The notes under the pieces were generated by a model. The model saw only the letters and a list, made by a program, of their open reading frames with translations. It was not told the origin of the DNA and did not search any database. The position numbers and the translations under genes are program-made. A stretch of DNA of 49,374 nt from a virus, in IMG/VR virus record IMGVR_UViG_3300033553_000791, positions 1 through 49,374 of that record; one strand, 5' to 3'. Position 1 is the first letter of the stretch, and each line of letters opens with the position of its first letter. This document shows positions 3,504 through 32,038 of the stretch, in pieces.

Positions 3504-3665
3504 ACACCTAATCCGCAAATACCGAACAAACGTTCACCCCTAGCGTACGCGATGCAACGGCCGTCTCAGTTCCAGAGACCTGCACGGAGAATACTAGCGT
3601 TTGCAGGAGAGTTTCTGTCCGAAGCCCAGCGTAGAGTGACGACTCCAGAGAGATGGGAGGGTGCG

Positions 3666-3821
3666 ATGATGACGGGGCGAGAGGCGCTTCTGGCGGCGGC
3701 GACAATCCTGGAGGAGGTGCCGGAGGATGATCCGCTGGCGGTTTGGGCGTCGTCTATCGCTGCGTACGTCAAGGAGAATCTAGCTCCTCGTCACCCTTCC
3801 GTACTCGCGCCCCCTCAATGA
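3666..3821 (+). CDS. small acidic hypothetical protein
   Basis: 51 residues from tandem ATGs at 3666/3669 with GGGAGGG at 3655-3661. The sequence is largely helical and acidic (REALLAAATILEEVPEDDP, then WASSIAAYVKENL). It runs convergently into the repressor gene, overlapping it by 53 bases. The longer in-frame start at 3552 has no ribosome site. No family recognised. Confidence 0.4.
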   Translation: MMTGREALLAAATILEEVPEDDPLAVWASSIAAYVKENLAPRHPSVLAPPQ

Positions 3822-4128
3822 TCATCTCGAGGGCTTCGAGGGAAATGAGTCCTTCTGCCATGGCCTCCCATACCAACCGCTCTGCCTTCGCCTGGCGGTA
3901 CTCCAGGAAGTACTCAGGGTCTACAGAGAGTGCGCGGGCAAGTTTCTCGACGGTACGGAGGGAACGAGGGTCGAGGTGGTGTCCGCGCTTGCCCGAGATG
4001 TACCTGCTGATCGTGGCCGGGGTGACGTCAGCGGCAGCAGCGAGCTCGGTGTGCTCGTCGATACCCCTCTCGTGCATCAGATATGTGAGTGCTTGGCCTA
4101 TGGGCATGTCAGTTCGCTCTCGCTCCAT
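3769..4128 (-). CDS. XRE-family repressor (CI-like)
   Basis: 119 residues. An N-terminal lambda-repressor-like helix-turn-helix lies at about residues 10-72 (LTYLMHERGI...LAAAADVTPATISRYISGKRG...LEKLARALSV-type pattern). A short acidic helical tail follows, with no LexA/S24 self-cleavage domain, so induction would not use RecA-type cleavage. It is transcribed away from the Cro-like gene at 4236, across three palindromic operators. Expected role: holds the early operon silent and regulates itself. A second ATG (residue 8) is possible. Confidence 0.85.
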   Translation of the reverse strand: MERERTDMPIGQALTYLMHERGIDEHTELAAAADVTPATISRYISGKRGHHLDPRSLRTVEKLARALSVDPEYFLEYRQAKAERLVWEAMAEGLISLEALEMIIEGARVRKGDEELDSP

Positions 4129-4140
4129 CGTAACAGCACC

Positions 4141-4215
4141 CTAACCAACGTTGGCAATTAATGCTTGCTTAGGTTGGTAATCCGTGCTAGAGTTCCGATT
4201 GCCGAGGTTGGTAAT
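4141..4215. promoter_or_regulatory. operator array O1-O3 between repressor and Cro-like genes
   Basis: Three 18-bp imperfect palindromes: 4141-4158 CTAACCAACGTTGGCAAT, 4164-4181 CTTGCTTAGGTTGGTAAT and 4198-4215 ATTGCCGAGGTTGGTAAT. The right half (GTTGGYAAT) is constant and the left half varies. Centres are 23 and 34 bp apart. A fourth copy lies at 4457-4474. Position and symmetry fit binding sites for the flanking helix-turn-helix proteins, as in lambda OR. Confidence 0.8.
4165..4193 (+). promoter_or_regulatory. candidate early rightward promoter
   Basis: TTGCTT (4165-4170), 17 bases, then TAGAGT (4188-4193), giving a start near 4200. O2 covers the -35 box and O3 covers the start point, the arrangement expected for repression by the CI-like protein. 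Boxes are only partly consensus. Confidence 0.5.
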
Positions 4216-4235: not shown

Positions 4236-4457
4236 ATGGACCGGATCGCGGAACTCATCGACAGATACAACAAGGACTTCCTGGCATCAGGCGAGCAACC
4301 CATGAACCAACGCCGACTGGCTGAGTTGCTCGGCACGAGCGAGGCACAGGTGAGCCGTCACGTGAGAGGGCACACGAACATGTCGCTCGCAACGGCTCGC
4401 AGATACGCCCAGGTACTCCGTTGTCGGGTCGACGACCTCTATTCTGACGTCCGATGA
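4236..4457 (+). CDS. Cro-like helix-turn-helix regulator
   Basis: 73 residues. Nearly the whole protein is an XRE-type helix-turn-helix (MNQRRLAELLGTSEAQVSRHVRGHTNMSL, then ATARRYAQVLRC). First gene of the rightward early operon and divergent from the repressor. Its stop overlaps the ATG of the next gene (TGA within ATGATT), and an operator begins at the last base of the stop. Expected to counter the repressor at the shared operators. Confidence 0.8.
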   Translation: MDRIAELIDRYNKDFLASGEQPMNQRRLAELLGTSEAQVSRHVRGHTNMSLATARRYAQVLRCRVDDLYSDVR

Positions 4458-4687
4458 TTACCGACGTTGGCAATCAAGCCTCCACCACCCATACCGAGTA
4501 CGAAGGAGCCTTCTACCCGAAGGACTCCGTCGGAGCCGACGGAGTCCCGGCTCCGCTCCCTCCAGAGGTCGCCGGCCTAATCCGGGAGATCATCGAAGCC
4601 GACCTCGCGGCCAATCCTGAGGCGCGCCGCGTCTGGATAGCCGAGGCTGAACGATTGGTGGCTGAGCGCAAGCGGGGTGCAGCATGA
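4454..4687 (+). CDS. hypothetical early protein with operator-encoded N-terminus
   Basis: 77 residues, ATG 4454 overlapping the Cro-like stop. The first residues after Met (ITDVGN) are specified by the operator palindrome, so they are probably not under protein-level selection. The C-terminal half is helical and charged (VAGLIREIIEADLAANPEARRVWIAEAERLVAERK), like small phage regulators or partner proteins. It ends in ATGA overlap with the next gene. No family recognised. Confidence 0.65.
   Translation: MITDVGNQASTTHTEYEGAFYPKDSVGADGVPAPLPPEVAGLIREIIEADLAANPEARRVWIAEAERLVAERKRGAA
4457..4474. promoter_or_regulatory. operator O4 inside the next coding start
   Basis: ATTACCGACGTTGGCAAT, the best-symmetric copy of the operator (half-sites ATTACC and GGCAAT; compare O3). 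It occupies codons 2-7 of the gene starting at 4454, so those codons read ITDVGN. Binding here would act as a roadblock to elongation or a loop partner for O1-O3, not by blocking promoter access. Confidence 0.7.
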
Positions 4688-31067: not shown

Positions 31068-31703
31068 ATGGCCCTCCAGATCCTCACTCTAGCCGATATG
31101 AAAGCGCATTCGTCTCTGGCCGAGGTGCAGGCGCTGACCGACTCGACGCTCGAGCTGCTGGAGGCACAGGGGCTCGATCTGCTCGAGGCCGAGGTGGGCC
31201 GACGGCTCACGCTGGACGGAGTGGACAGTGCCGTCGTCGCGTACGGCGACGGCCTGTCCCTGCTCCGGCTTCCCGAACGGCTCGGCACCCTCACCACCGT
31301 CGTCTCCGAGACTCTCGGCGACGTCACGTCCTCGTGCGTGCTGCTGGCCGACGGCTGGCTGATGAAGGCCCGCGTGTCCGTGGGATTCGTCTTCGAACCA
31401 GACGCGCCCGCGTACACATTCAGCGAGGGCGTGGCAGTCACCATCACCGGCAAGTGGGGCCTCGCCTGTCCCGCTCGAGCACAGCGCGTACTCATGGACT
31501 TGGTTGAGGCTCTGGCTGTGCGCAAGGGCAACGAGGTGTCTCGCCGCGACGAGGTCATGCCGTGGGGCGCAGTGTCCGACGGAGGCCTCCAGGCGTCGCG
31601 GGACTCCGGGCACCGAGAGGCCACCCTTGAGAACCTGCTCCGCTACGACGTGAAGGCCCGCCTCCGCGGGCTCTATCGTCCGGCCAGAGTGGTCGCGGTC
31701 TGA
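31068..31703 (+). CDS. head-tail connector (gp6/adaptor-like)
   Basis: 211 residues from ATG 31068. Opens LQILTLADMKAHSSLAEVQ...LTDSTLELLEAQGLDLLEAEVGRRL, the helical start usual for DNA-packaging adaptor proteins, followed by a beta region (LRLPERLGTLTTVVSETLGD; FVFEPDAPAYTFSEG) and a helical tail. First of five neck genes in canonical order. Should bind below the portal. Confidence 0.75.
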   Translation: MALQILTLADMKAHSSLAEVQALTDSTLELLEAQGLDLLEAEVGRRLTLDGVDSAVVAYGDGLSLLRLPERLGTLTTVVSETLGDVTSSCVLLADGWLMKARVSVGFVFEPDAPAYTFSEGVAVTITGKWGLACPARAQRVLMDLVEALAVRKGNEVSRRDEVMPWGAVSDGGLQASRDSGHREATLENLLRYDVKARLRGLYRPARVVAV

Positions 31704-32038
31704 TGTTCGACCTGGTGGTCGACCTCTACGCGATCTCGGAGAGCACGGTCAACGCCGCGCCCGGGGAGAGCGCGACTCTGCTGGCCGCCAACGTCCCTGC
31801 GCAATTCCTGCGCACCAGTGGCAACACCCGCTACCTCGCCGCCGGAGTCGGTGTGGTGCTGGACGCACGCATGGCGCTCACCACCACCGCAAACCTGACG
31901 GAGAAAGCGGAAGTCCGGAACGTGCGGACGCGCGAGGGCGCGGCGGTGCCCCATCAGCCCGCGGCCTACCGAGTGCTCTTCGTGAACCCCAGCCGGCGCG
32001 GCTTCCACACCGAGCTGGATCTACAGGCGGTCCGCTAG
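31703..32038 (+). CDS. head closure-like protein
   Basis: 111 residues starting in one-base overlap with the adaptor gene. Beta-rich (FDLVVDLYAISESTVNAAPGE, VPAQFLRTSG, YRVLFVNPSRRGFHTELDLQAVR), as in stopper/head-closure proteins. Assignment rests mainly on order between the adaptor and the gp10-like gene. Confidence 0.6.
   Translation: MFDLVVDLYAISESTVNAAPGESATLLAANVPAQFLRTSGNTRYLAAGVGVVLDARMALTTTANLTEKAEVRNVRTREGAAVPHQPAAYRVLFVNPSRRGFHTELDLQAVR

Follow-up and report, generated by a model that had tools for sequence, protein, structure and literature searches.

A predicted fourth operator at the cro stop/start junction of a CI/Cro switch in an actinobacterial prophage group

Introduction

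A distal operator behind a cro- or mor-like gene is already known from phage TP901-1, in which the OD site lies in the distal part of mor, and this layout is reported for many lactococcal and streptococcal phages, with operator sequences that differ among them (PMC7250872). The TP901-1 repressor is built from a helix-turn-helix (HTH) domain and two helices, and in one model hexameric CI loops the DNA, a higher-order assembly lost in CI-delta-58 (122 aa), which only dimerises (PMC4941734). Three other systems offer points of comparison. Coliphage 186 CI uses the distal flanking sites FL and FR beside its main promoter region (PMC7708051, PMC8053113), the stoperators of cluster A mycobacteriophages are numerous, genome-wide and asymmetric (PMC9283540), and the C.Kpn2I site lies inside the protein's own gene, 20 bp from the transcription start (PMC6237814).

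Here we analyse a 49,374-bp stretch (the window) that lies on a 180-kb contig from a bacterial genome of 3.57 Mb. The window carries terminase, portal, head morphogenesis, head protease, virion protein and endolysin genes and is a prophage or phage segment. An initial annotation had proposed that, in addition to three operators between its CI- and Cro-like genes, a fourth (O4) forms the first codons of the next early gene. Comparison with three relatives argues, with a probability of roughly 0.8, that O4 serves the CI/Cro switch as a true distal (auxiliary) operator and is kept for its DNA sequence.

Results

The switch and its operators

The locus has the organization of a temperate phage CI/Cro immunity switch, with divergent HTH repressor and Cro-like genes and shared operators in between. 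Its features, by window coordinates, are as follows.

3769 to 4128, minus strand: CI-like repressor gene, 119 aa (Pfam HTH_26/HTH_3, PHROG repressors, AlphaFold model with pLDDT 89, fold search)
4141 to 4158, plus strand: operator O1, CTAACCAACGTTGGCAAT, the closest to the CI-like gene
4164 to 4181, plus strand: operator O2, CTTGCTTAGGTTGGTAAT, overlying the -35 element of the PR-like promoter
4165 to 4193, plus strand: PR-like promoter, TTGCTT-17-TAGAGT, a pattern match only
4198 to 4215, plus strand: operator O3, ATTGCCGAGGTTGGTAAT, starting 4 bases past the -10 element, over the expected start site
4236 to 4457, plus strand: Cro-like gene, 73 aa (Pfam HTH_26/HTH_3; homologues in all four elements compared), with its TGA stop at 4455 to 4457
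4454 to 4687, plus strand: early gene, 77 aa (homologues in L004, L005 and L020; AlphaFold model)
4457 to 4474, plus strand: predicted distal operator O4, ATTACCGACGTTGGCAAT, the top-ranked site outside the intergenic cluster, kept in three relatives

The AlphaFold model of the CI-like protein consists of an HTH domain and two C-terminal helices without a peptidase domain, the last predicted helix ending at residue 116; these two helices were poorly covered by the fold-search matches, and a protein search of the phage collection with CI returned only weak Vibrio phage matches. A TTGCNN-17/18-TANNNT promoter pattern, again a pattern match only, occurs at O2/O3 in all four elements. We infer that CI and/or Cro bind the four operators. 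Occupancy of O2 and O3, which lie on the rightward early promoter, would repress it directly.

Two further features were seen on the CI side. In each of the four elements a LexA-type box (GAAC-N4-GTTC) adjoins a small conserved ORF (MTGREAL...) that reads toward the 3′-end of the CI-like gene. Since the 119-aa CI lacks a peptidase domain, the product of this ORF is a candidate SOS-induced antirepressor. In addition, three of these elements carry a second CI-like gene, which lies some kilobases past the first and shows no operator cluster.

Window, LexA-type box and small ORF: 3524-3535 and 3669-3821
L004/L055, LexA-type box and small ORF: 2362 and 2476
L005/L056, LexA-type box and small ORF: 1972 and 2090
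L020, LexA-type box and small ORF: 3469
Second CI-like gene just left of the window: G000:C21:106542-106850
Second CI-like gene in the genome of L004: G013:C114:3579-3857
Second CI-like gene in IMGVR_UViG_3300003366_000008 (L011): 31633-31944

O4 is the only strong site outside the intergenic cluster

O4 covers the final base of the Cro-like stop and codons 2-7 (ITDVGN) of the 77-aa gene, whose ATG at 4454 overlaps that stop as ATGA; the coordinates 4457-4474 thus bear out the placement that had first been proposed. So does the claim that O4 is the most symmetric copy, with 14 of its 18 bases dyad-matched as against 12 of 18 in each of O1 and O3 and fewer in O2. O3 is 259 bp away from the site, and O1 316 bp. 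When the whole 49,374 bp was scanned with a symmetric matrix made from O1-O3 alone, leaving O4 out, O4 scored 27.2 bits versus 9.0 for the next best site outside the cluster, and none of 2,000,000 positions of first-order Markov DNA reached its score, placing it far beyond chance. The window holds exactly four strong sites, and the same scan gave no convincing second distal site on the CI side.

The same arrangement recurs in three relatives. The comparison set (n = 4) comprises the window, L005 and L004, all from one bacterial family, and L020 from one IMG/VR viral contig. L005 (from G004) and L004 (from G013) were found via homologues of the 77-aa gene, and L020 and L019 are IMG/VR contigs with such homologues, of which L019 starts downstream of the switch. 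The two relatives from the same bacterial family are recorded as Actinobacteria MAGs; their contigs are short (9.6 and 10.9 kb) and could be viral pieces binned with these genomes. The 77-aa protein had no Pfam or PHROG match and no homologue in the phage collection by DNA or protein search, and single-sequence scans of the viral contig and genome contig collections gave no match. In L005, L004 and L020 alike, CI and Cro are present with three operators between them, and a fourth site lies where the cro-like gene ends. Scored with each element's own matrix, made without O4, the fourth site ranked first outside the cluster in four of four elements and was the only strong extra site in each.

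Window: O4 27.2 (27.0 in cross-scoring), next best site 9.0, O3-O4 distance 259 bp
L005: O4 26.6 (26.7 in cross-scoring), next best site 5.8, O3-O4 distance 258 bp
L004: O4 21.3 (20.7 in cross-scoring), next best site 4.0, O3-O4 distance 266 bp
L020: O4 18.1 (18.2 in cross-scoring), next best site 6.5, O3-O4 distance 264 bp

For each of the four, no random position in 2 million attained the O4 score. When the matrices of all elements were applied to all four sites, every O4 scored best with the matrix of its own element; the window and L005 share one operator type, and with any other element's matrix the sites of L004 and L020 reach no more than 6.5. The rank of O4 by the O1-O3 matrix, together with this comparative support, argues that the fourth operator is real. 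It lies 221-227 bp past the cro start in the four elements, and the near-constant O3-O4 distance is largely a consequence of the constant length of cro.

The operator DNA is kept while the peptide is not

The palindrome is present in all three relatives and follows the operator type of each element, and the residues that it encodes change or are absent; neither of the outcomes that would have spoken against the original proposal, the same peptide in other codons or loss of the palindrome, was seen in them. The peptide over O4 is ITDVGN in the window, ITELGN in L005 and STTRSN in L020. From the window to L005 the central C.G becomes G.C, leaving the dyad intact and converting Asp-Val to Glu-Leu, and a third change is silent and improves the L005 palindrome to 16/18. 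In L004 it is the Cro frame that crosses O4 (codons M-P-E-V-A plus part of the stop), and the next gene begins past it. L020 retains O4 although the 77-aa-like sequence that directly follows it has lost its frame and decayed (tblastn against the intact copy, E 1.8e-6); the intact 77-aa gene, 0.5 kb further downstream, has no operator. The decayed remnant is followed by a Cro-like C-terminal fragment (L020 4403-4640), both between O4 and the intact gene, and this is the trace of a recombination event at the switch. The arrangements in L004 and L020 indicate that O4 belongs to the switch and not to the 77-aa gene.

That the peptide ITDVGN is itself selected and its match to the operator incidental is very improbable. 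Four of the six residues are common to the window and L005, as selection on the peptide would have it, but the residues differ or are missing in L020 and L004 while the operator persists, and the match is far beyond chance. Codon choice also argues against it, the window using the rare codons ATT (0.115 of Ile codons in this prophage), GTT (0.055 of Val) and AAT (0.209 of Asn) within O4; GC3 over codons 2-7 is 3/6 in the window and 2/6 in L005, versus 49/70 and 68/74 over the remaining codons. Residues 1-8, mostly operator-encoded, are the only segment with pLDDT below 50 in the AlphaFold model of the 77-aa protein and are likely disordered, which we take as supporting evidence only because the model's alignment is shallow (four sequences) and low pLDDT is common at N-termini. 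Together these comparisons support the reading that codons 2-7 are held at the DNA level and track the operator type. The initial annotation had described the coding sequence as constrained by protein binding rather than by its product, which holds for codons 2-7 and not for the remainder of the gene, where the homologues are conserved as protein (47-58% identity).

A further alternative is that the 77-aa gene has a promoter of its own, repressed by O4, from which a leaderless mRNA would start close to the ATG. The window does have a TATTCT 8 bases upstream of the ATG, but the corresponding TANNNT is missing at the equivalent place in all three relatives, which makes such a promoter unlikely, and none was found by the promoter scan. 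Moreover, the ATGA/GTGA overlap suggests that translation is coupled to cro, and L020 retains O4 in front of a broken gene. We consider this alternative improbable, if somewhat less so than selection on the peptide.

Two hairpins lie close to O4. One, terminator-like (GTTGTCGGGTCGACGAC), is at 4420-4446, where the cro-like gene ends shortly before O4, with a weak T-rich tail, and 0.5 such hairpins are expected by chance. The other, near-perfect (GGACTCCGTCGG..CCGACGGAGTCC), lies at about 4521-4546 inside the 77-aa gene, some 50 bp past O4, and is reduced in L005; it was rejected as a terminator, the wider fold being not unusual (z -1.85) and a T run lacking, and is probably a by-product of V-G-x-D-G codons.

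O4 in sister switches and other loci

The fourth operator characterizes this group and is not general to such switches, because two sister CI-Cro pairs lack a convincing one. L063 has three intergenic TTGCC-N5-GGCAA operators and no fourth site, and the CTGCC-N5-GGCAG close to the end of Cro in L064, which also has three TTGCC-N5-GGCAA operators, is weak and not significant. In the L062/L028 switch, related sites occur upstream of cro and also far behind CI, with none at the end of cro. In L028, a sister element from G010, the latter is a strong palindrome at 1211-1228 (CTTCGCAACGTTGCGAGT), of the same type as upstream of its cro and possibly a distal operator on the CI side. A scan of distant CI loci (L012-L018 and L023-L054) for repeated palindromes gave only noise or AT/GC-rich repeats, and the sole match to the operator pattern in the viral contig collection, L071, is outside any such switch and was judged unrelated.

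Discussion

How would a repressor bound at O4 act? From about 260 bp downstream, O4 cannot directly block initiation at PR. Repressor at O4 may instead cooperate with repressor at O1-O3, looping out the cro-like gene, and such a loop would give tighter repression in the lysogen, like OD in the TP901-1 model. By analogy with that system we slightly favour looping or cooperation with O1-O3, a tentative reading to which we give a little under even odds. The O3-O4 distances (258, 259, 264 and 266 bp) show no sharp helical phase and so do not separate looping from a block to elongation. Against looping, the 119-aa CI ends where TP901-1 CI-delta-58 ends, the dimer-only form of 122 aa, and has no counterpart of the C-terminal multimerisation part.

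The rival to looping is a roadblock, in which CI or Cro at O4 stops polymerase from PR after cro, letting cro be transcribed while keeping the later genes of the early operon silent. The position of O4, directly behind cro and before the rest of the early operon, is what this would require, and there are precedents in C.Kpn2I, which blocks elongation from the site inside its own gene (PMC6237814), and in the mycobacteriophage repressors that terminate elongation at stoperators (PMC9283540). On the other hand, the CI proteins of lambda and 186 are poor roadblocks (reviewed in PMC10310618), and there is one extra site here versus many stoperators in cluster A phages. We regard a roadblock as possible, and less probable than looping. 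One specific form of it is rather unlikely, in which a small and probably dimer-only repressor (or Cro) would use O4 as an elongation gate, a one-site stoperator embedded in the first codons of the following gene that uncouples cro expression from that of the remaining early operon. Because the repressor is so short, this group offers a simple test of looping versus elongation block by distal operators.

Among the described systems, TP901-1 is the closest in layout. In both, a repressor gene diverges from a cro/mor-like gene, operators lie at the early promoter, the repressor is built from an HTH domain and two helices, and one distal operator (here predicted) lies where the cro/mor-like gene ends. 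They differ in that TP901-1 has two proximal sites and this locus three, and in that OD is within mor whereas O4 is at the junction of the cro stop with the following gene, lying inside cro only in L004. Moreover, TP901-1 CI continues beyond its two-helix hook into a C-terminal multimerisation part (residues 122-180) that is absent from the 119-aa CI. Coliphage 186 resembles this locus in having a repressor with distal sites flanking the main promoter region (here predicted), but its flanks are on both sides (FL and FR), whereas no convincing distal site was seen here on the CI side, and its CI forms a 14-mer wheel through a C-terminal domain, whereas here two helices follow the HTH domain and no such domain is present. 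Like the cluster A stoperators, O4 would be a repressor site inside a transcribed early region of an actinobacterial phage; those are many and asymmetric, however, and the window has four palindromic sites in 49 kb, one of them extra. C.Kpn2I likewise pairs a small HTH dimer with a site in a coding region (here predicted), but that site is 20 bp from the transcription start, whereas O4 is about 260 bp downstream, at a gene junction.

The distal operator layout is thus not new in itself. What these elements would add is an actinobacterial group whose repressor is short, the placement of the site at a stop/start junction, and a clear separation of operator from peptide, extending the TP901-1-like layout of Gram-positive phages to an actinobacterial prophage group. 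They would also provide a clear case of protein binding holding coding DNA in place, in which the operator stays while the peptide changes, shifts to the end of another gene, or belongs to a dead gene copy.
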